Assembly (NCBI RefSeq): GCF_027944115.1
Contig: NZ_JAPJZI010000001.1
Span: 372,001 to 436,000 of the forward strand
Direction of reading: 5' to 3'
Length of the DNA stretch: 64,000 bases
From: Hoeflea prorocentri
Lineage (GTDB): Bacteria > Pseudomonadota > Alphaproteobacteria > Rhizobiales > Rhizobiaceae
A program made the position numbers and the translations under genes. The notes below the pieces were generated by a model. That model saw only the letters and a list, made by a program, of their open reading frames with translations. It did not search any database and was not told the origin of the DNA. The number at the start of each line of letters is the position of its first letter. The first letter of the stretch is position 1. Shown here in pieces: positions 2,881-16,828 of the stretch.

Positions 2881-4290
2881 ATGGCAGACTTCAGCGACCC
2901 AGTTATTCTTGCCCGCATTCAGTTCGCGTTTACCGTCTCGTTCCATATCATTTTCCCGGCGACGTCCATCGGGCTGGCGAGCTTCCTTGCATTCGTGCAA
3001 TGGCGCTGGATGCAAACCCGTGAAGAAGTCTATCTGACCCTTTTTGATTTCTGGATCAAACCGTTCGCCGTCGTGTTCGGCATGGGTGTCGTATCCGGCC
3101 TGATGCTGAGTTACGAATTCGGCACCAACTGGAGCGTTTTCGCCGACAAGGCCGGCCCGGTGATCGGCCCGCTGATGGGTTACGAGGTCATGACCGCATT
3201 CTTCGTCGAGGCGGGCTTTCTCGGTGTTATGCTGTTCGGACGCGACAAGGTCGGTCCAAGATTGCATTTTTTCGCAACCTTCATGGTGGCGGCGGGCACG
3301 CTCGGATCGGCCTTCTGGATCCTGAGCGTCAATAGTTGGATGCAGACGCCGGCCGGCTACGGCATGAACGAGGCGGGACAGTTCATTCCGCTGAGCTGGA
3401 TGGAGGTGATCTTCAACCCGTCCTTCCCCTATCGCTTCGTCCATATGGTCTTTGCCGCCTATCTGACGACAGCGCTGGTCGTGGCGGCAACGGCCGCCTA
3501 TCATTTGCGCCGCGCCCGGCAGAACCGCACGACGCGCAAGATGTTCTCGCTGGCCATGTGGATCATCGCCATTGTCGCACCGCTGCAGATCCTTGCCGGC
3601 GACCAGCACGGGCTTAATACCTATGAGCACCAGCCGGCCAAGGTTGCCGCGCTGGAGGGGCATTTCAAGACCCGCAAGGCAGCACCGGAGTATATTTTCG
3701 GCTGGCCCAATATGGAGACCGGCGAAATCGACTATGCGGTTTCCATTCCCTATCTCGGGTCGTGGATTCTTACTCATGATTTCAACGCGGAGGTTGTCGG
3801 ACTTGACCAGTTTCCGCGCGAAGACTGGCCGAACGTTAATATTCTGTTCTGGTCATTCCGGATCATGGTGGGGCTCGGCCTGTTGTTCTTCACGCTCGGC
3901 TGCTGGGGCCTGTGGAAGCGATATCGCGGCCAGCTTTACGACAGTCCGCGGCTGGCACAGTTCGCACTGATGCTCGGGCCGACCGGCTATATCGCGGTTC
4001 TGTGCGGCTGGGTGACGACGGAGGTCGGCCGGCAGCCCTATACGATCTACGGCCTTTTGCGGACGTCGGATTCCGTTTCTCCGGTCGCCGCGCCGGCGGT
4101 GGCCACATCGCTGGCCGCCATCGTGGTCGTCTACCTCTTCGTCTTCGGACTGGGGACGCTCTATACGCTGCGGCTTTTGGCCAAAGACCCGCCGGACAGC
4201 CCTGCCGAACAGCAGCGTGGACTGCTCGATCAGGGCGGACGCCGCGCCGTCCGGATCTGGCGGCTCATATGGCCGGGCAGGGAGGTCTAG
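2881..4290 (+). CDS. cydA: cytochrome bd-type quinol oxidase subunit I, CIO (short Q-loop) type
   Basis: Subunit I of the cytochrome bd quinol:O2 oxidoreductase of the inner membrane, which carries hemes b558, b595 and d. Visible ligand positions by comparison with E. coli CydA are H22 (H19), H188 (H186) and M329 (M393), with E102 and E110 matching E99/E107 of the proton path. The quinol-site motif GRQPY is at 383-387. At 469 residues the protein lacks the long Q-loop insert of E. coli CydA (522), which places it with the cyanide-insensitive (CIO) subgroup. The subunit II gene starts 3 bp after this stop, with its ribosome-binding site over the end of this gene. Confidence 0.94.
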   Translation: MADFSDPVILARIQFAFTVSFHIIFPATSIGLASFLAFVQWRWMQTREEVYLTLFDFWIKPFAVVFGMGVVSGLMLSYEFGTNWSVFADKAGPVIGPLMGYEVMTAFFVEAGFLGVMLFGRDKVGPRLHFFATFMVAAGTLGSAFWILSVNSWMQTPAGYGMNEAGQFIPLSWMEVIFNPSFPYRFVHMVFAAYLTTALVVAATAAYHLRRARQNRTTRKMFSLAMWIIAIVAPLQILAGDQHGLNTYEHQPAKVAALEGHFKTRKAAPEYIFGWPNMETGEIDYAVSIPYLGSWILTHDFNAEVVGLDQFPREDWPNVNILFWSFRIMVGLGLLFFTLGCWGLWKRYRGQLYDSPRLAQFALMLGPTGYIAVLCGWVTTEVGRQPYTIYGLLRTSDSVSPVAAPAVATSLAAIVVVYLFVFGLGTLYTLRLLAKDPPDSPAEQQRGLLDQGGRRAVRIWRLIWPGREV

Positions 4291-4292
4291 CG

Positions 4293-5291
4293 ATGGACTA
4301 TGCTTTGATCTGGGCGCTCATTCTCGCCATCGGTGTCTTTGTCTATGTCGCACTGGACGGCTTTGATCTTGGCGTCGGTATCCTGTTTCCCCTTCTTGAA
4401 GACGAGCAGGAGCGCGATACCGCCATCGGCGCCATTGCGCCTGTCTGGGACGGCAATGAAACCTGGCTGGTCCTTGGCGGCGGTGGATTGCTGGCGGTGT
4501 TTCCGCTGGCCTATTCGGTCATCTTTCCAGCGCTTTATGTGCCGCTCATCGCGATGCTGTTGGCGCTGGTCTTCAGGGGCGTTGCCTTCGAGTTCCGGGT
4601 GCATGCCGGCCGTCACAAGCGGTTCTGGGATCATGCCTTTTTCGGCGGTTCACTGGTCGCTGCATTTGCCCAGGGCATATCGCTCGGCGCATGGCTGCAG
4701 GGAATCGAGGTTGTCGGGCGGTCCTATAGCGGCGCGTGGTGGGACTGGCTCACGCCCTTTTCGGTCGCAACGGGGCTCGCCCTGGTGTTCGGCTATGCAT
4801 TGCTTGGCGCGGCATGGCTTAACCTGAAAACCGAGGGAGCGCTGAATGCCCGTGTGAATCGTTTGATCATCCCGCTGGCGGCGGCGACGATCGGCTTTAT
4901 CGTCGCGGTCAGTCTCTGGACACCGTTTATGAACGAGCGCTATGCCGCGCGCTGGTTTACGTTTCCGACGATGATTTACGCCTTGCCCGTTCCGCTCTTT
5001 GTCGCAGCGACGGTGTTCACGCTATGGCAATCGCTCAAAAATGATAATGCCCTACGCGCCTTCCTCAGCGCTGAACTTCTGTTTCTGCTTTGCTATATCG
5101 GCATCGGTATCAGCGTTTGGCCGCATATCGTCCCGACTGCGATAACCATCCATGACGCAGCCGGACCTGACAAGAGCCTCGGCTTCCTGCTTGTCGGTGC
5201 GGTCGTTCTCATTCCATTGATTCTTGCCTATACGGCGGCGGCCTACTGGATCTTCCGCGGCAAGGTCAAGCATGGCGGTTATCACCATTGA
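4293..5291 (+). CDS. cydB: cytochrome bd-type quinol oxidase subunit II
   Basis: A 332-residue integral membrane protein, subunit II of the bd oxidase. The N-terminus carries the diagnostic DGFDLGVGILFP motif, and a conserved WDGNETWLV stretch follows. The frame stays open upstream to 3912, but that part lies inside cydA. The ATG at 4293 is chosen because GGGAGGT at about 4280-4286 is well spaced and the protein then begins exactly like other CydB proteins. It sits between cydA and a tiny third-subunit gene in one operon. Confidence 0.94.
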   Translation: MDYALIWALILAIGVFVYVALDGFDLGVGILFPLLEDEQERDTAIGAIAPVWDGNETWLVLGGGGLLAVFPLAYSVIFPALYVPLIAMLLALVFRGVAFEFRVHAGRHKRFWDHAFFGGSLVAAFAQGISLGAWLQGIEVVGRSYSGAWWDWLTPFSVATGLALVFGYALLGAAWLNLKTEGALNARVNRLIIPLAAATIGFIVAVSLWTPFMNERYAARWFTFPTMIYALPVPLFVAATVFTLWQSLKNDNALRAFLSAELLFLLCYIGIGISVWPHIVPTAITIHDAAGPDKSLGFLLVGAVVLIPLILAYTAAAYWIFRGKVKHGGYHH

Positions 5292-5302: not shown

Positions 5303-5440
5303 ATGGACAAGGAAAAGAAAGACATGCCAAAGGGCCCGCTTTGGCGCAGGCTCTTGTGGTTTATCGCCCTTTGGGTCGCGGGCGTGTTGACGATCACCGC
5401 TGTCGGCTACCTGTTGAGGAGTTTTTTCATCCCCGGCTAA
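5303..5440 (+). CDS. small third subunit of CIO-type bd oxidase (DUF2474/CydX-like)
   Basis: A 45-residue protein starting at ATG 5303, 11 bp after cydB. It has a basic N-terminus (MDKEKKDMPKGPLWRR) and one membrane segment from about residue 18 to 40 ending in FFIPG. Tiny single-span proteins of this pattern (PLWRRLLWFIALW) directly downstream of cioAB/cydAB belong to the DUF2474 family, considered counterparts of E. coli CydX, which stabilises the oxidase. The gene is below most gene-finder cut-offs. Its last 4 bp overlap the convergent ABC ATPase gene. Context and composition make it convincing; a function in assembly or stability is inferred from the family. Confidence 0.8.
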   Translation: MDKEKKDMPKGPLWRRLLWFIALWVAGVLTITAVGYLLRSFFIPG

Positions 5441-6546
5441 AGCCTTAACTCGGTTTCAGGATCGAACAGGCAGGCCTTGTTCATGTCGATGGCGAATTGC
5501 ATGGTCTCGCCCTGATCCGGCGCTTCGTCCGGATCGCAGGCAACGATAACTTCCTGCTCACCAAGCCTTGCCATCAGGATCGTTTCTGACCCGGTGGGTT
5601 CCACCATGTCGATGCTGATGTCCACGAGGGTGGACGTGCCGCCCTTGCGTTCCGCCCGTTGCTCATGCGCCGGGCTGAAATGTTCAGGCCGGATACCGAA
5701 TACAACCTTTTGCCCGGCCTCCAGCCTGGTGTGTGTTTCCGTAATCAGCGGAAGGACCGCGCCATCGCCGCCTTGAAGGACGATGCCGGGAGCATCTCCG
5801 GCTCCGGTTATCTCGCCCTGCAGGAAGTTCATTGTCGGCGATCCCATGAAGCTCGCGACAAACCGGTTGGTCGGATTGGAGTAGATATTGTTGGGGGTGT
5901 CATATTGCTGCAAAACACCGTTGAACATGACCGCGATGCGGCTGGCCAGCGTCATCGCCTCGACCTGGTCATGGGTGACGTAAACGGTTGTCTTTCCGAT
6001 ATTCTGGTGCAGCTTCTTGATCTCGGTGCGCATTTCGACGCGCAATTTTGCGTCCAGATTGGACAAGGGTTCATCGAACAGGAACAGCTTCGGATCGCGC
6101 ACGAGGGCGCGGCCCATGGCCACCCTCTGGCGCTGTCCACCGGAGAGCTGGCTGGGTTTGCGCCCGAGCAGGTGATCGATCTGGAGGAGCGCCGCAACGC
6201 GGGCGATCTCCCTTTCCCTTTCGGCTTTCGCAATGCCCCGGCTTTCCATGCCGAAGCTCATGTTTTCGCGCACGCTCATGGTGGGGTAGAGCGCGTAGCT
6301 CTGGAATACCATCGCGATGTCGCGATCCTTCGGTGCTTCGTTGTTGACGAGATGGCCGTCGATGCGGATCTCGCCCGAGGTCACACTTTCCAGACCTGCA
6401 ATCATGGAGAGCAGTGTAGATTTTCCACAACCGGACGGGCCGACCAGCGCAATGAATTCGCCGGATTGAGCCTCGAGGTTCACATCCTTCAGAACCTCGA
6501 CGTGTCCGTAGCGCTTGCGCAGATCCTTGATCAACAATGACGACAT
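5437..6546 (-). CDS. sugar ABC transporter ATP-binding protein (MalK/UgpC type)
   Basis: The 369-residue ATPase of a CUT1 carbohydrate importer, acting at the cytoplasmic face of the membrane. Walker A GPSGCGKST is at 36-44, the Q-loop at Q82, the signature LSGGQRQ at 134-140, Walker B LFLFDEP at 154-160 and the switch His at H192. A C-terminal MalK-type TOBE regulatory domain runs from about 235 to the end. It is the last gene of the leftward operon, 12 bp after the MalG-type permease, and its stop overlaps the convergent bd-oxidase small subunit gene. Confidence 0.93.
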   Translation of the reverse strand: MSSLLIKDLRKRYGHVEVLKDVNLEAQSGEFIALVGPSGCGKSTLLSMIAGLESVTSGEIRIDGHLVNNEAPKDRDIAMVFQSYALYPTMSVRENMSFGMESRGIAKAEREREIARVAALLQIDHLLGRKPSQLSGGQRQRVAMGRALVRDPKLFLFDEPLSNLDAKLRVEMRTEIKKLHQNIGKTTVYVTHDQVEAMTLASRIAVMFNGVLQQYDTPNNIYSNPTNRFVASFMGSPTMNFLQGEITGAGDAPGIVLQGGDGAVLPLITETHTRLEAGQKVVFGIRPEHFSPAHEQRAERKGGTSTLVDISIDMVEPTGSETILMARLGEQEVIVACDPDEAPDQGETMQFAIDMNKACLFDPETELRL

Positions 6547-6558
6547 GAGTTCAACCTG

Positions 6559-7461
6559 CTATTTGACTGCGCCCTGGGTCAGGCCGCGCACGAAATATTT
6601 GCCGCCCACCAGATAGATGAAAAGAGGCGGAAGAGCCGCCATGATGACTGCCGCCGCTTCGACATTGTAATGGCGTTCGCCGGTTCCTGAGCCGGAGAAG
6701 GCGACGATGGCTGCGGTGATCGGCTGCTTATCGCCGGATGTGAACACGGTGCCGAACAGGAACTCGTTCCAAATCCCGGTGAACTGCCAGATCACCGTGA
6801 CGATCAGGATCGGCGGCGAAAGGGGTAGGATGATGCGGCGGAAGATGCGCCAGAAGCCGGCACCGTCGATCCGCGCCGCCTTGATCAGGTCGTCCGGAAT
6901 ATTGACGAAATAGTTCCGACAAAACAGCGTCGTGAAGGAGACGCCCTGAACCGTATGGACAAGCACCAGCCCGGCAATCGTGTTTGAGAGCCCCACCGTT
7001 CCCAGAACATAGGCCCAGGGCAGCAAGGTCATCTGCGCCGGCAGGAAGACGCCAAGCGTGATCAGACCGAATATGAGGCCGTCTCCACGGAAGCGCCATT
7101 TCGACAGGATGTAGCCGTTGACGAGACCCAGCGCCGTCGACAGGGCCGTTGCCGGGATCGTCATCAGGAGCGAGTTTTTGTAGAAGCGCGAAACGCCCTC
7201 GCAGGTTCCGCCGATGCAGAACGTGCCCCAGGCTTCGGCCCAGTATTGCAGGGAAAAGGAAGCCGGCCAGGAGATGAAACCCCTTCGCACAATGTCGTCG
7301 AGCGGTCGCAGCGTGTTTGTTGAAATGATGATCAGCGGCGCCAGGTAGACAAAGGCGAAGATGCCAAGGGTCAGATAAACCCCGAATTTGGACATGAGCT
7401 GCCGGTTCCGGCTTCCCGTGGCCAACGGGTCGAATTCCTGACGGGTTGCAGTCTCAGCCAT
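6559..7461 (-). CDS. sugar ABC transporter permease (MalG type)
   Basis: A 300-residue permease with six predicted membrane segments and the CUT1 EAA loop (AARIDGAGFWRIFRRIILP) that docks on the ATPase. The frame is open further upstream, but the start at 7461 (MAETATRQ) is chosen because it gives an 8-bp overlap with the preceding permease gene and a normal cytoplasmic N-terminus. An insert with two cysteines (CIGGTCEG) lies in the first periplasmic loop, which is uncommon in MalG proteins. It works with the MalF-type permease, ATPase and binding protein of this operon. Confidence 0.92.
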   Translation of the reverse strand: MAETATRQEFDPLATGSRNRQLMSKFGVYLTLGIFAFVYLAPLIIISTNTLRPLDDIVRRGFISWPASFSLQYWAEAWGTFCIGGTCEGVSRFYKNSLLMTIPATALSTALGLVNGYILSKWRFRGDGLIFGLITLGVFLPAQMTLLPWAYVLGTVGLSNTIAGLVLVHTVQGVSFTTLFCRNYFVNIPDDLIKAARIDGAGFWRIFRRIILPLSPPILIVTVIWQFTGIWNEFLFGTVFTSGDKQPITAAIVAFSGSGTGERHYNVEAAAVIMAALPPLFIYLVGGKYFVRGLTQGAVK

Positions 7462-8377
7462 GGCCGCCGCCCTCCTTGCGTTGCCGCCAGACCGACCAGA
7501 GCGCATAAGGCACGAGCACGAGTGCAAGAGCCGCCAGGATCATCACCGCCGCGGCAGCGCCCTGTGCTATCTGTCCGCGCTGAAACATCAGATCATAGAC
7601 GACGATGGCCGGGACGGTTGTTGCGACGCCGGGACCGCCCTGGGTCAGCGCGACGACGAGGTCATAGGTCTTGATCGCGAACTGAAGCAGCACGACCGTT
7701 ACGGCCACGAAGATCGGCCATATGGTCGGCAAAATTACCCGGCGGTAGATGCGCGGCATCGATGCGCCGTCGATCTGCGCCGCCTTGACGAGATCGCCGT
7801 CCACGGACCGCAGGCCGGCGAGGATCAGCGCCATTGCAAAGCCGGACGCATGCCAGATCGCCGTAAGCACAACGACATAGAGCGCGACGTCGCGGTCGGC
7901 GATCCAGTTGAATTTTGCCGTCACCCAGCCGATGTCCTTCAGGGCCAGTTCGATGCCGGTCTGGGGATGGAAAATCCAGCGCCAGACAGTGCCTGTGACG
8001 ATAAAGGAGATGGCGAGCGGATAGAGATAGATGGTGCGCCAGATGGCTTCAAAACGCACACGCTGATCGATCAGGATCGCCAGCAGGGTGCCAATCACCA
8101 GCGCTCCAAGCACGTAGAGCGCGCCGAATACAAAAAGGTTCTGATAGGCGAAGGTCCAACGCTTGCTTTGCCACAAAGCCGCATAGGGGCCAAAGCCGCC
8201 GTAGTCGAGTTGGGGCAGGAGCGTGGAGTTGGATATCGAAACCCAGAACGTCCAGCCGGAAAACAGCACCACATAGACAAAGGCCGCGAAGATCGATGGC
8301 ACCAGCACGAACTGTGGAGTCAAGCGGGACAAGCGCTGCCACAGTGCGTTTTGCCGGGTATTACCCTGCTGCTGCAT
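7454..8377 (-). CDS. sugar ABC transporter permease (MalF type)
   Basis: A 307-residue inner-membrane permease with six predicted spans and the EAA motif KAAQIDGASMPRIYRRVILP near residue 225. The start at 8377 (MQQQGNTRQ) is supported by a strong GGAGGAGGTCC ribosome-binding site just upstream; the longer open frame to 8530 runs into the binding-protein gene. It is separated from the upstream binding-protein gene by about 80 bp containing a perfect GC hairpin, and overlaps the next permease gene by 8 bp. Confidence 0.92.
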   Translation of the reverse strand: MQQQGNTRQNALWQRLSRLTPQFVLVPSIFAAFVYVVLFSGWTFWVSISNSTLLPQLDYGGFGPYAALWQSKRWTFAYQNLFVFGALYVLGALVIGTLLAILIDQRVRFEAIWRTIYLYPLAISFIVTGTVWRWIFHPQTGIELALKDIGWVTAKFNWIADRDVALYVVVLTAIWHASGFAMALILAGLRSVDGDLVKAAQIDGASMPRIYRRVILPTIWPIFVAVTVVLLQFAIKTYDLVVALTQGGPGVATTVPAIVVYDLMFQRGQIAQGAAAAVMILAALALVLVPYALWSVWRQRKEGGGHG

Positions 8378-8420
8378 CAAGGACCTCCTCCAGACTTTTG
8401 TCGGCACGTGACCGGCAGGC

Positions 8421-8440
8421 GGCCCCGCATCGGCGGGGCC
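8421..8440 (-). terminator. GC-rich stem-loop between binding-protein and permease genes
   Basis: A perfect inverted repeat with arms GGCCCCGC and GCGGGGCC and a 4-nt loop, just after the stop of the sugar-binding-protein gene. There is no T-run, so it is probably not a strong intrinsic terminator. Such hairpins between binding-protein and permease genes usually stabilise the upstream message or attenuate read-through, giving more binding protein than permease. Confidence 0.6.
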
Positions 8441-8456
8441 ACCCGTAATCATCGTC

Positions 8457-9734
8457 TTATTGCTGCAGCTCGACAGCGTCGGCCAACTGGTTTGCGGCTT
8501 CTTCCGGCGTGATGGAAGGATCGGCGACAAACTCGGTGATGACCTCCATCATGGCGCCGCGGTACTTCTGGAGAACCGTCATATTGTGCGCCATGGAACG
8601 CACCAGCGTGCCTTCGGAAACCGATGCCTTCAGGTCCTCAAGACCCTTTTGCTGGCACTGGGTAAAGCCGCCCTCGGACAGATCAACATCCGTACGCGAA
8701 GGAATGGAGCCCTTGGCGACATTGAATGTGACCTGGAATTCCGGGGACATAATGATCTTGGCCAGGAGCTCCTGACCCGTCACATAGTCCGGATCGCTCT
8801 GCTCGAAGAAGACAACGGAGTCGGCGTTCAAAATGAAACCGTTGCCGCCCCAGTCGACTGGGGTCTGGTTACACAGGTAATCGACGTCTTCCTTGTATCC
8901 GGCAAGATTGGCGGAGGCGACGGTCCAGTCGCCCATCAGGAAGAAGGCAGCATCTCCATCCATCGTCATCGCCATGGATTGTTCCCAGGACCGGCCGTTG
9001 ATGCCGTCATCCATATAACCGACCATCTTGCGCAACTGTGCGAAGGCATCGATCATGCCCTGGCTGCGCATGGCGTCGGTATCGGCTTCCTGGAAGGCCT
9101 TGCGGTAGAGATCCAGATCCATGCCGTAAACGATGCTGTCGAAGGTCGTCGTGTCCGACCAGTCGGCGGCGCCATGTGCGATGCAGATCTTGCCGGCGGC
9201 CTGAACCTTTTCGCAGGCTGCATTGAATTCGGCCCAGGTTTTCGGAACTTCGATGCCCAGATCGTCAAGGATCTTCTTTGAGCTGTAGAGCCAGTTGACG
9301 CGGTGAATGTTCATCGGCGCGGCAACCCAGTTTCCCGTCGGCTTCATCACCGAGATCAGCTCAGGCGCGACGACCGCGTCCCAGCCTTCCGAGGATGCAA
9401 CACCATCGAGATTTGCCGTTCGGCCCGTGGCGTTCCATTCGGCAATTTCCGGACCTTTGAGCTGCACCGCAGCAGGCGCGTTGCCGGCGACAACGTCGGA
9501 GCGCAGCTTGGCCAACGTGTTCGAGGTATGACCGGAAATCGCGGTCTGCTCCCATACACCGCCGGCTTCCTCGAACATCTCACCGAGTTTGGCGATGGCT
9601 GCGGCTTCGGAGCCTTGCGCCCATTGGTGCATCATGTTGGTCTTTGGTTCAGCCTGAACACCAGCGACCTGAGCGCCGAGCGCAATGGTGCCAAGCAGTG
9701 TGGTGATCGTTAGTGTTTTCCCTTTATTTTCCAT
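8457..9734 (-). CDS. periplasmic sugar-binding protein of ABC transporter
   Basis: A 425-residue extracellular solute-binding protein of the family-1/GtsA-like group. A signal peptide covers about residues 1-28, with a likely cleavage after GVQA. The mature part begins with MMHQWAQGSEAAAIAKL, the usual first strand-helix of this group, and a cysteine pair (CEKVQAAGKIC) lies near residue 175. The start at 9734 has a good ribosome-binding site (GGGAGGTACCC). It is preceded by the SDR gene and followed by the hairpin and permeases. The group often binds glucose, mannose or related sugars; here the catabolic genes suggest another monosaccharide or sugar acid. Confidence 0.9.
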   Translation of the reverse strand: MENKGKTLTITTLLGTIALGAQVAGVQAEPKTNMMHQWAQGSEAAAIAKLGEMFEEAGGVWEQTAISGHTSNTLAKLRSDVVAGNAPAAVQLKGPEIAEWNATGRTANLDGVASSEGWDAVVAPELISVMKPTGNWVAAPMNIHRVNWLYSSKKILDDLGIEVPKTWAEFNAACEKVQAAGKICIAHGAADWSDTTTFDSIVYGMDLDLYRKAFQEADTDAMRSQGMIDAFAQLRKMVGYMDDGINGRSWEQSMAMTMDGDAAFFLMGDWTVASANLAGYKEDVDYLCNQTPVDWGGNGFILNADSVVFFEQSDPDYVTGQELLAKIIMSPEFQVTFNVAKGSIPSRTDVDLSEGGFTQCQQKGLEDLKASVSEGTLVRSMAHNMTVLQKYRGAMMEVITEFVADPSITPEEAANQLADAVELQQ

Positions 9735-9850
9735 GGGTACCTCCCGTTGTTTCTAGGAAAAGGGTCTTCAGTGTGTCGCTGAAAGCGATGGCCGGGTGCG
9801 GCCGGCTTTAGCGAATCTGCAAATGGCGTGAAGTCGTTTCACGGCGCGCC

Positions 9851-10600
9851 TCAATAGGTTGCCCGCCCGCCGGACAGGTCGAAGGCTGCGCCGGTGGTGA
9901 ACGAGTTTTCAGCCGAAGCCATCCAGAGGATCATGCTGGTGATCTCCTCTACCGTGACAAAACGGCCTCGGGGTATCTTGGAAAGCATGTAATCGATGAA
10001 CTCGTCAGTGACCTGATCGAGGATGCGTGTCCTGGCCGTTGCGGGCGTCACGCAATTAACAGCGATATCGTGTGTCGCTGTCTCCTTGCCGAGCGACTTG
10101 GTCAAGGCAATCACGGCTGCCTTGGATGCGGAATAGGCCGAGGCGTTTGGATTGCCTTCCTTTCCGGCGATGGAGGCGACATTGACGATGCGCCCGTAGT
10201 TGCCGGCGATCATTGCCGGAATGACTGCCTTGCAGCAGTGAAACGTTCCGTCGAGATTGACGGCCTGAACCTTGCGCCATTCGTCCGGCGGATAGCCGGC
10301 GACCGTGTCGGTGGGGCCCGCAATACCGGCGCTGTTGATGAGCACATCAACCTTGCTCAACCCGGCTTCGGTGTTTTCAAGCGCCGCGCTAACGCTGGCA
10401 AAATCGCTGACATCGACCGTCACCGGCAGAATTGAATCTGCGGGAAGCGCAGCGACCCGTGGCTCCAATGCTGTGACGTCGAGGTCCCAGATGGCGACGC
10501 GGGCTCCCGATATGACCAGGCGTTCGGCAACGGCTGCTCCGATACCATTTGCGCCGCCGGTGACAACGGCGACCTTGCCTGAATAGTCGTAGCTGTTCAT
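9851..10600 (-). CDS. SDR dehydrogenase, sugar-acid type (possible 2-keto-3-deoxy-aldonate dehydrogenase)
   Basis: A 249-residue classical short-chain dehydrogenase. The TGGANGIG nucleotide motif is at 14-21, an acidic end of strand beta-2 (IWDLD) predicts NAD+, and the catalytic residues are S143, Y156 and K160 (YSASK). It overlaps the upstream FAH-family gene by 4 bp (ATGA). An SDR paired with an FAH-family hydrolase is the signature of the diketo-hydrolase routes for L-fucose and L-rhamnose, where the SDR oxidises a 2-keto-3-deoxy acid to a 2,4-diketo acid. That role here is inferred from the pairing. Confidence 0.88.
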   Translation of the reverse strand: MNSYDYSGKVAVVTGGANGIGAAVAERLVISGARVAIWDLDVTALEPRVAALPADSILPVTVDVSDFASVSAALENTEAGLSKVDVLINSAGIAGPTDTVAGYPPDEWRKVQAVNLDGTFHCCKAVIPAMIAGNYGRIVNVASIAGKEGNPNASAYSASKAAVIALTKSLGKETATHDIAVNCVTPATARTRILDQVTDEFIDYMLSKIPRGRFVTVEEITSMILWMASAENSFTTGAAFDLSGGRATY

Positions 10601-11454
10601 GCCGCCACCTCGCTTAAGTTGACGACGCGCTGCTGCTGCTCGCCTAGACCGTCAATGCCGAGAGACACGTTGTCACCGGGGCCGAGCCAGACCGGTGGTT
10701 TCATGCCGGCACCAACGCCGGGCGGAGTGCCGGTGCAGATGAGGTCTCCCGGCTCCAGACGCATGAATTCGCTCAGATAGCTGACGATGGTCGCAACGTC
10801 GAAAATCATCGTATTTGTGTTGCCGGACTGCATTCTCTGTCCGTTGACATCGAGCCACATCGGCAAGGCGCGTGCGTCCGCGACTTCGTCGCCTGTTACG
10901 ATCCACGGGCCCGTCGGGCAGAAATTCGGAAACCCTTTGCCCTTTGCCCATTGCCCGCCCCGTTCAAGCTGCCAGGACCGCTCGGAGACGTCGTTGACCA
11001 CCGTGTAGCCAAGCACATGGTCGAGCGCGTTCTCGCGTTCGACATTGAGTGCAGCCGTGCCGATGACAATGCCGAGTTCGACTTCCCAGTCGAGTTTGGA
11101 CATTTTCGGTGAGTAAAGGATTGGATCGTTCGGCGCGCAGAAGGTCCCGGACGCCTTGTTGAAGAGGATCGGTTCCTCGGGGATGTCCATTCCGGCTTCC
11201 GCAGCATGGTCGGAATAGTTCAGGCCGATACAGTAAATATTGCGCGGCTGTGTCATCGGCGTGCCGATACGCGCGCCGGCGGTCTCAACTGCCTCAAGCG
11301 TTGTCGGATCGGTATTGCCCAGCGTATCGGCGAGCAGCGGAATGGTCTGCGGTGTGAAATCCGCGACGAGCGGAGAGACGTCGCGCGCCGTGCCCGTGTC
11401 GTCCAACATGCACGGTATCTCGCTGCCTTCTCTTCCGACACGCAGTAGCTTCAT
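10597..11454 (-). CDS. fumarylacetoacetate hydrolase-family protein (possible 2,4-diketo-3-deoxy acid hydrolase)
   Basis: A 285-residue FAH-fold protein. The family hydrolyses or decarboxylates diketo acids using Mg2+. Metal ligands are visible as E124, E126 and D155 (DWEVELG and VVNDVS), with the active-site GLNYSDHAAE at 77-86 and K100. The start at 11454 is chosen over the longer frame because it gives a 4-bp ATGA overlap with the upstream enolase-like gene and begins with the normal family N-terminus. With the SDR it could cleave a 2,4-diketo-3-deoxy sugar acid into pyruvate and a hydroxy acid; the exact substrate is not readable from sequence. Confidence 0.88.
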   Translation of the reverse strand: MKLLRVGREGSEIPCMLDDTGTARDVSPLVADFTPQTIPLLADTLGNTDPTTLEAVETAGARIGTPMTQPRNIYCIGLNYSDHAAEAGMDIPEEPILFNKASGTFCAPNDPILYSPKMSKLDWEVELGIVIGTAALNVERENALDHVLGYTVVNDVSERSWQLERGGQWAKGKGFPNFCPTGPWIVTGDEVADARALPMWLDVNGQRMQSGNTNTMIFDVATIVSYLSEFMRLEPGDLICTGTPPGVGAGMKPPVWLGPGDNVSLGIDGLGEQQQRVVNLSEVAA

Positions 11455-12767
11455 GCTGCATTCTCCTTGTTGTTCTTCTTGCCCCACCAGGTTCCGGCAA
11501 GCGGCCTGCCGCCAACGAATGCCGAAGCGCCGAGTTCGTCCTGAATGCGCAGGCATTCGTTCCATTTCGCCATGCGCTCGGAGCGGGCGAAGGATCCGAC
11601 CTTCAATTGTCCGCCGCCCAGACCTGTCGCCAGATGGCTGATCGAGACGTCTTCCGTCTCGCCCGACCGTGCCGAGACGATGGAACGCCAGCCGGCCGCC
11701 TGTGCCGCGTCAAATGTGTTGATCGATTCGGTTACCGTTCCGGCCTGATTGACCTTGACGAGAACGGCATTGCAGGCACCGCGCGCGGCCGCCTGCTCGA
11801 CAAGGCCAGCATTGGTCACAAGATAGTCGTCTCCAATGATCTGGACGCGCTCACCGAACCGGCGGGTGAATTCCTCCATGCCGTCGGCATCGTCCTCGCC
11901 GAGGGGATCTTCGATCGAAGCGATGGGGTAGGCGTCGAGCCAGTCGCCCAGCATGTCGATCATGGCGGCGCTGTCCAGTTCACGATCTTCGAGCGCCAGC
12001 CTGTAACGTCCATCCTGTCCAAACTCCGATGCCGCGATATCGAGTGAGATCACGACGCGTTCGCCGGGCTTTTCTCCTGCCTTCTCGATGGCACTGACCA
12101 GTGTTTCGAGCGCCTCTTCATTGCTGTCGAAGACCGGCCACCAGCCGCCTTCATCGGCGACGCCGGCAATCTTCCCGCGTGACGCCATAATGTCGCCGGC
12201 GGCAAAATAGACCTCGTTGGTCACTTCCATGACTTCATCCAGGCTGGAAGCGCCCGGCACCATGATCATGAAATCCTGAATGTCCACACGGCGTCCGGCG
12301 TGCGCGCCACCGCCAAAAATCTGAATTTCCGGCAAGGGCAGGGACGGTGTGTGCCGATAACGGTCGGCAACATGCCGCCACAGGGGCGTGCCGCTGTCGG
12401 CGGCGGCCGCATGGAGGACGGCAAGAGACGTTGCAACGGTGGCGTTACCGCCCAGTTTTTCCTTCAGCGGAGAGCCATCGAGCGCCAGGATTGCCGCATC
12501 GACGCGTTCCTGCTCGCCGGCCTCGATGCCGATGAGTGCGGGTGCGATCACGTCGTTTACTGCCGCAAGCGCCTTTTTGACACCTTTGCCGCCGAATGCC
12601 TTGCCGCCGTCGCGAAGATCAAGTGCCTCGCGGGTGCCGCGGGAGGCCCCCGACGGGGCAATCGCCCGGCCCAGCGCACCGCTTTCGAGCCTTACATCGA
12701 CCTCGACGGCCGGATTGCCGCGTGAGTCCCAGACCCGTCTTGACCTGATTGATGCGATCGGGCTCAC
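11451..12767 (-). CDS. enolase-superfamily paralogue with altered active site, in a sugar-catabolic operon
   Basis: A 438-residue protein clearly homologous to enolase (2-phosphoglycerate hydratase). In yeast numbering it keeps S39 (S39 here), H159 (H156), E211 (E206), D246 (D243), E295 (E286), D320 (D314), K345 (K338), R374 (R367), S375 (S368) and K396 (K389). It changes E168 to D165 and H373 to A366, both next to the leaving hydroxyl; the GGEHADNN loop reads GGAHAGRR. So the metal site, catalytic base and phosphate grip are present, but the C3 side is opened. The GTG start at 12767 overlaps the kinase stop as GTGA; the next gene overlaps as ATGA. This is unlikely to be the housekeeping enolase. 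A phosphorylated sugar-acid substrate is inferred. Confidence 0.82.
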   Translation of the reverse strand: MSPIASIRSRRVWDSRGNPAVEVDVRLESGALGRAIAPSGASRGTREALDLRDGGKAFGGKGVKKALAAVNDVIAPALIGIEAGEQERVDAAILALDGSPLKEKLGGNATVATSLAVLHAAAADSGTPLWRHVADRYRHTPSLPLPEIQIFGGGAHAGRRVDIQDFMIMVPGASSLDEVMEVTNEVYFAAGDIMASRGKIAGVADEGGWWPVFDSNEEALETLVSAIEKAGEKPGERVVISLDIAASEFGQDGRYRLALEDRELDSAAMIDMLGDWLDAYPIASIEDPLGEDDADGMEEFTRRFGERVQIIGDDYLVTNAGLVEQAAARGACNAVLVKVNQAGTVTESINTFDAAQAAGWRSIVSARSGETEDVSISHLATGLGGGQLKVGSFARSERMAKWNECLRIQDELGASAFVGGRPLAGTWWGKKNNKENAA

Positions 12768-13798
12768 GCGTCGACCCCTTCCATTCGATTTGTCAGTTCG
12801 CGGGTGAAATCCCGCAGCGTAGGGGTCGGCGCCTTGACAAAGCCAAGGGCGAGGCCGCGGATCCTGTCCTGTTCTGCGGCGCTCAGATACTCGACCGGCG
12901 ATTTGCCATCGATCCGGGCCAGCATCAGCGCCGGTACGAGGCCGCATATCCGCTCTTCAAGCTTGTTTTTCGGCTCCCAGACAATGTGAGCCGAATAGGC
13001 ATTCCAGAATTCAACAACGCCGGACAGCAGCCGTTGTCGCGAGGCGGGCAGATGCGCGGCCTTGAGGATCAGGTGATTGATACAGAATGACGCATCGAAA
13101 CTGGCATCGCCCATCGTTGCGCATTCGGCGTCAAGGATCACCGGCTGACCGTTTCTGAACAGGATATTCTTCGGGCTGATATCGCCGTGCACGAGGACCT
13201 GCCCACTTTCGAAGAGCATTTCGGCAAGTGCGACAAGTTCATCGGCAACTTCCGGATGACGGCCCGCCGTGAAGGTCAGGTATGGCTCAATGCGCAGGGC
13301 GCGAAAGTCCTCGCGATTGTGAAACGGAGCGGTATCGAAGCCCGGCTGTGTCGAGATGGCATGTATCTGCCCGAGCAGGTTTCCGACCCGCCCTGCCTCG
13401 CTGCGATCCTCGCGCTCTTCCAGCAGCGCGGCTTTCCACAGATAGACATCGCTGCCCTGCAGATATTCCATGGCAAAGCCGTGCAGGTGTTCGGAACTGC
13501 CAAAGAGTTGCACCGCGCTGCCCGGAGCAATGCGGGCCGCAACGCGCAGCCATTCATATTCCGCACGGTTCCTGTGGACGGGCGCGCGCCAATCCTCTTT
13601 GACCTTCAACTTGGGCAGGGCGAATTTGGCGCAAATGCTCTTGTCACCCAGATCGACGACCGCGATGTCGGAGGCAACGCCCCCGGAAAGCGGATCGATC
13701 CGCACGATCTGATCTCCTGACCCAAGCCCAAGTTCAACGACCAGCTCACGGCATTTTTTTTCGATGGTGGAGATGACGCCTCTGCCTTCAAGTTGCAA
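12764..13798 (-). CDS. APH/choline-kinase-fold phosphotransferase, first gene of sugar operon
   Basis: A 344-residue small-molecule kinase of the aminoglycoside phosphotransferase fold. The catalytic loop VHGDISPKN carries the H-x-D-x4-N pattern, the Mg-binding DAECA follows, and the glycine-rich LSGGVAS near residue 37 is the nucleotide loop. As first gene of an operon with sugar importer, enolase paralogue, SDR and FAH hydrolase, it probably phosphorylates the imported substrate or an intermediate. The start is uncertain: TTG 13798 has no Shine-Dalgarno and abuts the operator palindrome. An internal GTG at 13705 has AGGAG well placed but would remove a plausible N-terminal helix. Its stop overlaps the enolase-like start by 4 bp. 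Confidence 0.8.
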   Translation of the reverse strand: MQLEGRGVISTIEKKCRELVVELGLGSGDQIVRIDPLSGGVASDIAVVDLGDKSICAKFALPKLKVKEDWRAPVHRNRAEYEWLRVAARIAPGSAVQLFGSSEHLHGFAMEYLQGSDVYLWKAALLEEREDRSEAGRVGNLLGQIHAISTQPGFDTAPFHNREDFRALRIEPYLTFTAGRHPEVADELVALAEMLFESGQVLVHGDISPKNILFRNGQPVILDAECATMGDASFDASFCINHLILKAAHLPASRQRLLSGVVEFWNAYSAHIVWEPKNKLEERICGLVPALMLARIDGKSPVEYLSAAEQDRIRGLALGFVKAPTPTLRDFTRELTNRMEGVDA

Positions 13799-13812
13799 TG
13801 TTCACGTGAACA
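13799..13812. promoter_or_regulatory. 14-bp palindrome, probable operator of the LacI regulator
   Basis: A perfect palindrome TGTTCACGTGAACA centred on CpG, in the short gap between the kinase gene (leftward) and the LacI-family gene (rightward). LacI-family operators are even palindromes with a central CG, and an autoregulatory site between divergent regulator and target operon is the usual arrangement. Binding is inferred. Confidence 0.7.
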
Positions 13813-13889
13813 ATTACAATTAGCCCTGAGGCTGAGTCAAGACAGGAATGTCTGCAAATGATAGAAAGCCGTGTGCCGAGGGGGGCAAA

Positions 13890-14876
13890 TTGTCCAAACG
13901 CGTAACAATCAAGTCCATTGCGAAAGACCTTGGGATCTCGCACATGACGGTGTCCCGGGCGCTTTCAGACAATCCCAATGTGCATGCCAAAACCCGTGAG
14001 GCGGTGGTCAGGCGTGCAGCCGAGCTCGGCTATGTGAAAAGCGCGGCGGCAAAGGCGATGCGCGGTGACGGGACCAAGATCATCGGCCTGCTTTTGCCCA
14101 ATATCGTCAACGAGTTTTACGCCCGTTTCGCCAATACGCTGGCCGAGGCCTGCGAGGAGGGCGACTACCATCTGATCATCCACCTGACGAATGATGATAT
14201 CGAACTTGAGCAACGCTCACTGCAGCGATTGCTGGAAGTGCAGGCGATGGCCGCGATCATGGTGCCGGCTCCGGGCGATCCGGGCGAGAGTCTGAAACGC
14301 CTGGGTTCGATGAAGATCATCCAGCTCATCCGGCAGAGACGCTCGGATAAGCCGACCGCATCCATTCTTGTGGACGACGAGGCAGCCATTCGCGACGCGG
14401 TCATTCATCTTGCAGGCATCGGTCATCGCGCCATTGCCTATATTGGCGCAGATGCGGCTTTATCATCGGGCCGCAGCCGCCTTTCCGCCTTCAAATCCGG
14501 GCTCTTGGCGTCGGAGGTGACGGAGATTGCCGAGCTCATCCATGTGGGTTCTCCGTCTTTCGAGATGGGGCGAAGTTGTGCACGCCGAATACTGGAGGAG
14601 CGTGTCGCAACCGCAATCGTGTGCGGGGGGTTCGAGATTTCGAACGGCGCCCTGACTGCCCTGCTTGAAGCCGGTAAGGGCGTCTTGGAGGAGGTCGAGT
14701 TCGTCGGCTATGGCGACCCGTCATTTTATGCCTGGCTCATGGGCGGTATATCGACGATCCGTATTCCGGTTGATGATCTTGCTTTCAAGGCGGTCGACAT
14801 GCTGGACGGGGATGCATCCAGCGGCAGGCTGGTATCTTTCCCGGCCGAACTGACTGTCAGGGGCGGCGTTTCCTGA
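13890..14876 (+). CDS. LacI-family transcriptional regulator
   Basis: A DNA-binding repressor of the LacI/GalR family that controls the divergent sugar operon. The N-terminus has the helix-turn-helix VTIKSIAKDLGISHMTVSRAL followed by the hinge helix region ending YVKSAAAKAMRGD, then a periplasmic-binding-protein-like effector domain starting KIIGLLLPNI. I place the start at TTG 13890 because GAGGGGGG sits at proper spacing and the protein then begins LSKRVTIKS like other members. The ATG at 13848 (14 residues longer) has AGGA immediately against it, which is poor spacing. The effector is probably the transported sugar or a pathway intermediate. Confidence 0.9.
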   Translation: MSKRVTIKSIAKDLGISHMTVSRALSDNPNVHAKTREAVVRRAAELGYVKSAAAKAMRGDGTKIIGLLLPNIVNEFYARFANTLAEACEEGDYHLIIHLTNDDIELEQRSLQRLLEVQAMAAIMVPAPGDPGESLKRLGSMKIIQLIRQRRSDKPTASILVDDEAAIRDAVIHLAGIGHRAIAYIGADAALSSGRSRLSAFKSGLLASEVTEIAELIHVGSPSFEMGRSCARRILEERVATAIVCGGFEISNGALTALLEAGKGVLEEVEFVGYGDPSFYAWLMGGISTIRIPVDDLAFKAVDMLDGDASSGRLVSFPAELTVRGGVS

Positions 14877-15937: not shown

Positions 15938-16828
15938 ATGACGTTGCCGTTCCAGACAGACCTGTCCGTCAAACCGGAAGTGATTGCTTTCTTCGACGAG
16001 GGGTCCAATACGATCTCCTACATTGTGCGCGATCCCGGATCGGTATCGTGTGCCGTCATCGACGCGGTTATGGAAATCGACTATGCGGCCGGCCGGCTGA
16101 CCTTTGAGGGCGCCGATGCGATTATCGAACGCATCAGGGCGGAAGGATGGACACTTGAATGGCTGATTGAGACGCATATCCATGCCGACCATCTGTCCGG
16201 CGCGCCCTATATCCAGAAACATCTGGGTGGCAAGATCGGTATCGGCGAACAGGTGACCGTCGTTCAGGACACATTCGGCAAGATCTTCAATGAAGGCACG
16301 GAGTTCCAGCGCGACGGATCGCAATTCGATCGCCTTTTCACCGATGGTGACACCTACCGGATCGGGGCCATGAACGTCTTTGTCATGCATACACCTGGGC
16401 ACACGCCGGCCTGCATGACCCATGTCATCGGCGATGCAGCCTTTGTCGGCGATACCTTGTTCATGCCCGACGGCGGCTCGGCCCGGGCCGACTTCCCCGG
16501 GGGCGATGCGCGCACGCTCTACCGCTCCGTGCGCCGTGTCCTTGAACTGCCGCCGGAAACCCGACTTTTCATGTGTCATGACTATGGCCCCAATGGCCGG
16601 GAAATCCGCTGGGAAACGAGTGTAGCGGAAGAACGGACCAACAATATTCATGTCAAAGACGGTATTGACGAAGATAGCTTTGTCCAGATGCGTGAAGCGC
16701 GGGACGAGACGCTTGCCATGCCGAAGCTCATCATCCCGTCCCTGCAGGTCAATATGCGTGCCGGCCGATTGCCGCCCAAGGACGACAAGGGCGATGTGTT
16801 TTTGAAAGTGCCCATCGACAAGCTTTGA
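15938..16828 (+). CDS. MBL-fold metallo-hydrolase, persulfide dioxygenase-like
   Basis: A 296-residue metallo-beta-lactamase-fold protein. Metal ligands are H80, H82, D84, H85 (THIHADH), H155, D172 and H214, the set used by glyoxalase II and ETHE1-type persulfide dioxygenases. The segment SARADFPGGDA matches the region of persulfide dioxygenases that usually reads GRTDF, so a sulfur-oxidising role is possible but not certain. Start ATG 15938 has AAGAAGGA upstream. It lies about 5 kb from a BigR/SqrR-like regulator, the class that controls such enzymes elsewhere; no matching operator was found directly before this gene. Confidence 0.82.
   Translation: MTLPFQTDLSVKPEVIAFFDEGSNTISYIVRDPGSVSCAVIDAVMEIDYAAGRLTFEGADAIIERIRAEGWTLEWLIETHIHADHLSGAPYIQKHLGGKIGIGEQVTVVQDTFGKIFNEGTEFQRDGSQFDRLFTDGDTYRIGAMNVFVMHTPGHTPACMTHVIGDAAFVGDTLFMPDGGSARADFPGGDARTLYRSVRRVLELPPETRLFMCHDYGPNGREIRWETSVAEERTNNIHVKDGIDEDSFVQMREARDETLAMPKLIIPSLQVNMRAGRLPPKDDKGDVFLKVPIDKL

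Follow-up and report, generated by a model that had tools for sequence, protein, structure and literature searches.

Kinase and altered enolase encoded together in a predicted sugar-acid operon of Hoeflea prorocentri: a tentative downstream role for the pair

What does an enolase-like protein, with a kinase encoded next to it, do in an operon that otherwise resembles the closing part of a sugar-acid pathway? The question is raised by a 64,000-nucleotide stretch of the Hoeflea prorocentri genome (assembly GCF_027944115.1, contig NZ_JAPJZI010000001.1, positions 372,001 to 436,000, forward strand; hereafter the window), where a minus-strand operon encodes, in this order, an APH-fold kinase, an enolase-like protein, a FAH-family hydrolase, an SDR oxidoreductase, and the binding protein, two permeases and ATPase of a CUT1-type ABC importer, with a LacI gene divergent from it. 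In the original prediction on this DNA the SDR and the FAH-family hydrolase were taken as the end of a diketo-hydrolase route, and the kinase and the enolase-like protein as a replacement of the sugar-acid dehydratase that such a route needs. We find this interpretation to be partly supported. The operon, its sugar importer and the divergent regulator lie as predicted, the three 4-bp overlaps that join the four catabolic genes (GTGA, ATGA, ATGA) can be read in the sequence, and the SDR and FAH genes stand side by side as in diketo-hydrolase routes, though the hydrolase scores below the cut-off of its family model; the chemistry of the hydrolase, the SDR and the importer is that suggested by their families. 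The kinase and the enolase-like protein do belong together, but the comparison with related operons speaks against a role as a dehydratase substitute, and we tentatively propose a role after the hydrolase instead.

Pairing and active site of the kinase and the enolase-like protein

The kinase and the enolase-like protein are a near-obligate pair. In a kinase-profile scan of genome contigs at least 563 relatives of the kinase were confirmed, of which the best-scoring 80 were kept (not a random sample), and 75 of these 80 loci, fetched by kinase similarity alone, have an enolase-like gene; among the five others, two stretches (L091, L104) end at or just past the kinase, and for a third (L110) the variant enolase sits on another contig of the same genome. 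With the kinase as sole query, a tblastn search found 33 plasmid records, and the stretches fetched from 18 of them all contain an enolase-like frame, which is degenerate in one case (L043) and broken in another (L045). In the reverse direction, the enolase as query against 199 genomes of the family found a 60-100% identical copy in 11, the own genome included; in all 11 the kinase gene lies within 10 kb of the variant enolase, and all 11 hold a second, canonical-like enolase that is 44-46% identical to the variant. Moreover, the pairwise identities of the kinases correlate with those of the enolases (r 0.71 over 98 distinct pairs, with the frame-broken L045 left out), the highest of 500 shuffles giving 0.19. 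It is noted that repeated loci (identical kinases in L062/L120, L048/L121 and L057/L146) were merged, the whole-set counts being counts of distinct loci. Thus the claim that the two proteins belong together is upheld, and the gene-neighbourhood search that had been suggested as a check finds the linkage conserved well outside H. prorocentri.

By record names, both genes occur in Rhodobacterales, Rhizobiales, Burkholderiales, Streptomyces, Arthrobacter, Rhodococcus and an Acidobacterium-group bin, the genome loci with the pair spanning Alpha-, Beta- and Gammaproteobacteria, Actinomycetota and Acidobacteria, and the plasmid records extend the pair to haloarchaea (Haladaptatus, Halomarina) and Bacteroidota, with Persicobacter also named. 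An operon like that of the window is plasmid-borne in Paracoccus seriniphilus DSM 14827 and in Roseibium aggregatum. The kinase is nevertheless widespread but patchy, because it is found at an E value of 1e-60 or better in only 9 of 398 genomes of the phylum. No description of the paired subfamily was found among the titles and abstract starts that searches of the open-access PMC literature returned. Two apparent enolase-kinase fusions (frames of about 690 codons in L058 and L060) were rejected, each being an enolase frame that runs over the kinase gene in another frame. In the Rhizobium plasmid CP087971.1 (L045:9204-11342) the kinase and enolase frames are both broken, by decay or by sequencing error, and the degenerate pair of the Enterobacter chuandaensis plasmid NZ_CP097174.1 (L043:7292-10017), whose enolase-like frame has Glu211 changed to Lys and is without the SARSG motif, lies among U32 peptidase, aminotransferase, M14 peptidase, MFS and nucleotidyltransferase genes in what looks like a biosynthetic cluster.

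The window enolase-like protein has both enolase domains and exceeds the cut-off of 300 bits of TIGR01060 (phosphopyruvate hydratase); it is labelled phosphopyruvate hydratase by NCBIfam, and several public records name its relatives eno. Its active site is altered, as are those of its linked relatives. Residues were counted, in yeast numbering, over 99 distinct linked enolases, the window one included (102 before repeats were merged), with two partial contig-end copies (L094, L097) left out. The base Lys345 and three metal ligands are retained in 99 of 99, and the acid Glu211 in 98 (Lys in L043). By contrast, Glu168, found in 21 of 21 canonical enolases, is Asp in all 99 linked ones; His373, likewise present in 21 of 21 canonical enolases, is Ala (93) or Gly (5) in all 98 readable linked ones; the Asn of loop L2, also kept in 21 of 21, is Gly or Ser in 98 of 98; and a basic residue stands in the L2 loop of 96 of the 99 (the exceptions being L043, L052 and the broken L045) and of none of the 21. 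We take the His373 position to lie near C3 of the substrate. In a Devosia-type clade (L098, L099, L102, L103) this position holds Gly and not Ala; there LacI and IlvD dehydratase genes follow the pair (the IlvD gene of L099 being frame-broken in the calls), and no FAH gene was seen within the fetched stretches. The roles of Lys345, Glu211 and Ser39 in enolase are described in the excerpted text of PMC4450660, in which the substrate contacts of the Chloroflexus enzyme are given as Glu165, Glu206, Lys338, Arg367 and Ser368; this Glu165 would correspond to yeast Glu168.

Taken together, the fixed residue changes, the near-obligate pairing and the fact that these genomes also hold a canonical-like enolase suggest an intermediate that the ordinary enolase does not handle, and the linked enolase is probably a different enzyme from the glycolytic one. 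Enolase is usually treated as a one-reaction housekeeping family, and since the NCBIfam model scores the window protein over its cut-off, annotation puts a probably different enzyme into glycolysis.

The fragment released by the hydrolase

We propose that the pair is a private two-enzyme module that converts the glycerate-type fragment of the FAH-family hydrolase, most likely to phosphoenolpyruvate (PEP), a reading that we prefer while giving it somewhat less than an even chance. In the model, a dehydratase of conventional type, encoded elsewhere, would make the 2-keto-3-deoxy acid, and the hydrolase would split the 2,4-diketo-3-deoxy sugar acid into pyruvate and a glycerate-type acid. The kinase would then phosphorylate the 2-hydroxyl of this small 2-hydroxy acid, and the altered enolase would remove a proton from C2 and the leaving group from C3, so that an enol-phosphate, most likely PEP, is formed. 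The fragment would lie beyond the reach of the normal glycerate kinase and enolase, and would be L-glycerate, or a glycerate or lactate changed at C3 such as 3-sulfolactate. The substrate, the order of the steps and PEP as the product are all hypothetical, and the wider proposal of a non-glycolytic route to PEP from a three-carbon acid (L-glycerate, or 3-sulfolactate with release of sulfite and not water) in both Bacteria and Archaea is more doubtful still. If true, a widespread and near-obligate pairing of kinase and enolase would open another way into central metabolism, and it might account for the recovery of the second product that diketo-hydrolase sugar pathways release.

The nature of the fragment is suggested by characterized SDR and FAH enzymes, which, as far as the excerpts of PMC6336799 go, gave pyruvate and glycolate, or lactate from a deoxy-fuconate substrate; on that basis glycerate would be expected from a hexose. 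D-Glycerate is unlikely as the substrate of the pair because a MOFRL glycerate kinase is present in 184 of the 199 family genomes, the own one included. The neighbours of the pair are also of interest. In rhizobia, three consecutive genes encode a PEP carboxylase (so named from its catalytic motifs, by comparison with the E. coli enzyme), a 2-hydroxyacid dehydrogenase and the kinase; the carboxylase is present in 6 distinct loci. In L061 the pair is followed by a PRK06487-type 2-hydroxyacid dehydrogenase, of a family named glycerate dehydrogenase (341 bits, below the cut-off of 448), and in L052 and L056 aldehyde dehydrogenase genes precede the pair. In 36 of 105 distinct fetched loci, 19 of them with more than 15 kb fetched, none of the partner enzymes screened for was found; that about one third of the pairs stand alone would fit a product that enters central metabolism unaided. 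Thus the nearby PEP carboxylase, the 2-hydroxyacid dehydrogenases and the stand-alone pairs fit a downstream role. Moreover, one genome (L185) has the FAH (62% identical) and the SDR (66%) and no kinase, with an FMN hydroxyacid oxidase gene downstream of them and a divergent GlcD-type gene upstream; an oxidase in place of the pair is expected if the step of the pair concerns the FAH product. No swap of the pair for a glycerate kinase was seen in the operons read, and co-occurrence with the MOFRL kinase is uninformative because nearly all genomes have that kinase.

Several points weigh against this proposal. The PEP carboxylase neighbours are confined to one lineage, and the count of stand-alone pairs is soft, since it includes short contigs, the two loci with a PhyH gene (L064, L113) and L099, whose broken IlvD gene was missed; the screen used single reference proteins, so its absences are soft in general. 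The reductase families that neighbour the pair are the D-2-hydroxyacid dehydrogenase, the ketopantoate-reductase type and KARI, which are usually D-specific, and L-glycerate is thus not favoured. The basic L2 loop suggests a substrate larger or more charged than glycerate, by which a charged group at C3 would be favoured, while the retention of the general acid Glu211 makes water a more natural leaving group than sulfite. In view of the D-specific neighbours and the basic loop, L-glycerate was rejected as the sole candidate and counts as one among others. For 3-sulfolactate, TauE-type exporters were looked for around the pair by means of two Ramlibacter reference proteins, which have low reach; the search returned only the loci of those proteins (L096, where Pfam also finds TauE, and L109) and a weak match in L072 (29% over 133 residues). 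Finally, in the metagenome bin of L133 a kinase is accompanied only by a canonical enolase, and L130 has MR/MLE, FAH, SDR and kinase genes with no enolase in its bin (E 1e-40), the latter arrangement being compatible with a downstream role of the pair but not proof of it.

Operator, dehydratases and competing readings

The pair may have another substrate, or serve in metabolite repair or biosynthesis, its placement beside the FAH and SDR genes then being secondary. This we consider unlikely, though its varied neighbours speak for it: TRAP and TTT transporters, PhyH dioxygenases, VOC and cupin genes and a PEP-mutase-family lyase are found near the pair, and the Enterobacter plasmid cluster carries it. 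(The PhyH-family genes lie upstream of the pair at L064:7217-8125 and L113:8968-9951, in loci from different classes.) What stands against it is the regulation, since one operator precedes the LacI gene with the pair, the sugar importer and an IlvD gene across Rhodobacterales and Roseibium loci. The operator candidate of the window (Table 1) is present between LacI and kinase in all 16 loci, the window among them, that have a divergent LacI of at least 46% identity (exact in 13, with one mismatch in 3), and none is found there in the seventeenth locus, whose LacI is 35% identical. The LacI gene and the operator are also found in L075, together with the pair and a TTT carboxylate transporter, and there the start of the TTT binding-protein frame holds a further copy with one mismatch; copies lie ahead of the TTT genes in L039 (exact) and L047 (one mismatch) too. 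The genome of L071 has the operator at a separate locus (L222), 236 bp ahead of an IlvD frame that is followed by an ABC importer and an SDR; the best PDB match of this IlvD protein is a solved galactonate dehydratase and the second an IlvD/Edd dehydratase, presumably a xylonate dehydratase, and the nearest entries to the SDR are unnamed SDRs and a sulfoquinovose 1-dehydrogenase.

In the own 5.04-Mb genome a search at up to one mismatch finds the operator twice, each time as an exact copy, and the reversed control not at all. The second copy, on contig 2 at about 367957-373064 (L208:7957-13064), precedes a gene for a GAF-type sensor/histidine kinase, with an apparent response regulator and an SMP-30 lactonase gene downstream and a HisD-family gene upstream; the last was considered as a sulfonate enzyme and ruled out, being called histidinol dehydrogenase.

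The proposal from which we started is that the kinase phosphorylates C2 of a sugar acid, the enolase eliminates the C3 hydroxyl to leave the enol-phosphate of the 2-keto-3-deoxy acid (from which ATP might be recovered), the phosphate is lost or passed back, and the SDR and FAH enzymes finish the route; we judge it improbable, though some evidence is in its favour. The retained base, acid and metal ligands suit an elimination from a 2-phospho acid, the changes at two residues near C3 and the basic L2 residues would suit a larger substrate, and in L061 a hydratase-type gene and one for an HpcH aldolase lie further along the same strand. It is true that the window operon has no dehydratase gene, and in 22 of the 31 loci with both FAH and enolase genes (the window being one of the 31) none was found in the fetched stretch by a screen with single reference proteins, whose absences are soft; with L045 corrected 21 such loci are left, so that the substitution could hold where no other dehydratase exists. 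The premise is weak, however, as dehydratases occur elsewhere in the own genome and in relatives. UxuA-, MR/MLE- and GarD-type genes also occur in kinase loci (the families having been shown on examples), and 9 of the 31 loci have a dehydratase-family match in the fetched stretch by the reference screen, four of which (L065, L069, L081, L112) are MR/MLE matches of 30-42% identity with a putative dehydratase role; a tenth locus is L045, where the UxuA gene is broken and escaped the screen. The closest sister operon (L086), which is 87% identical to that of the window in the binding protein, 77 and 81% in the permeases, 75% in the ATPase, 77% in the SDR and 69% in the hydrolase, carries an IlvD-type dehydratase gene between its SDR genes. 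The own genome has an unlinked IlvD-family gene, 72% identical to the pair-adjacent dehydratase of Devosia and 69% to that of L086, with no good operator match upstream of it. These genes, together with the IlvD gene behind the same operator in L222, argue against a pair that replaces the dehydratase.

A further argument comes from one genus in which the operon exists with and without the pair. In G071 the operon runs transporter, SDR, UxuA-type dehydratase, lactonase, another gene, kinase, enolase, FAH and SDR. In G154 and G603, of the same genus, identities of 80-98% are seen for the seven other operon genes that were compared, with no kinase or enolase match at the locus, and a kinase-profile search found no kinase anywhere in G154, G603 or G656, also of this genus. 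In addition, many pairs are found without any screened enzyme that would use a 2-keto-3-deoxy acid. Between an operon with the pair (L054) and two without it (L182, L183) the identities are 80-81% for FAH, 92-93% for SDR and 92-95% for UxuA, which would fit a joint move of kinase, enolase and FAH; differences nearly as large as in FAH are seen in the lactonase and in another gene (81-87%).

Least probable of all, and to our mind quite unlikely, is that the kinase represents a new D-glycerate 2-kinase class, with the enolase as a copy carried in the operon that turns 2-phosphoglycerate into PEP in the ordinary way, for although 2-hydroxyacid dehydrogenases and PEP carboxylase adjoin the pair, most catalytic residues are retained and yeast enolase H373A reportedly keeps part of its activity, the MOFRL glycerate kinase and the canonical-like enolase of the variant-bearing genomes are there already, and the fixed active-site changes and the near-obligate pairing would be left unexplained.

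The features of the operon are collected in Table 1; the reading frames were called mechanically, and several start codons are uncertain. Directly past the ATPase end of the operon, genes at 2881-5291 resemble, by eye, those of cytochrome bd oxidase subunits, and at 15938-16828 a metallo-beta-lactamase-fold protein is encoded that by eye is like the persulfide dioxygenase or Blh types.

Table 1. Predicted features of the operon and its regulator, in window positions
Feature	Position	Strand	Matches
ABC ATPase, UgpC/MalK type	5437..6546	-	NF008653 461.6 bits (cut-off 432)
ABC permease	6559..7461	-	PF00528
ABC permease	7454..8377	-	PF00528
ABC substrate-binding protein, glucose-binding-protein type	8457..9734	-	PF13416; best PDB matches are ABC sugar-binding proteins 8hqq, 5dvf
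SDR oxidoreductase, probably a C4 dehydrogenase (from its pairing with FAH)	9851..10600	-	PF13561/PF00106
FAH-family hydrolase, nearest to 2,4-diketo-3-deoxy-L-rhamnonate hydrolase	10597..11454	-	PF01557; NF053535 357 bits (cut-off 500); PDB 8gsr 265 bits
Enolase paralogue with D165 and A366 (yeast E168D, H373A) and Arg in the L2 loop	11451..12767	-	PF03952, PF00113; TIGR01060 472 bits
APH-fold small-molecule kinase (predicted), TTG start uncertain	12764..13798	-	PF01636 65 bits; TIGR01767 56.5 bits (cut-off 275)
Operator candidate between LacI and kinase, perfect 14-bp palindrome TGTTCACGTGAACA	13799..13812		
LacI-family regulator, divergent	13848..14876	+	PF00356, PF13377

Comparison with known systems

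The nearest named and solved relative of the window kinase is methylthioribose kinase, but its TIGR01767 score is far under the cut-off, and no methionine-salvage gene was noticed in the window operon. Glycerate kinases fall into classes I to III, some members of which make 2-phosphoglycerate, the enolase substrate, according to the excerpted text of PMC2063504; the window kinase differs from these classes in its APH fold, and it gave no match to the MOFRL, GarK or plant-type glycerate kinases in Pfam (E up to 0.001) or NCBIfam, PF01636 being its only Pfam match. With the diketo-hydrolase pathway of sugar acids (Route III), as it appears in the excerpts of PMC6336799, the window operon has the SDR and the FAH-family hydrolase in common, and it differs in the added kinase and altered enolase and in having no dehydratase gene within the operon. 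The linked enolase, finally, has in common with enolase (EC 4.2.1.11) both domains, the metal ligands, K345, E211, S39, R374, S375 and K396, and it is unlike that enzyme in E168D, in H373A/G, in the change of the L2 Asn to Gly or Ser together with a basic residue in this loop, and in its tie to a kinase gene; the residue signature of E168D, H373A/G and a basic L2 loop makes the family easy to recognise.

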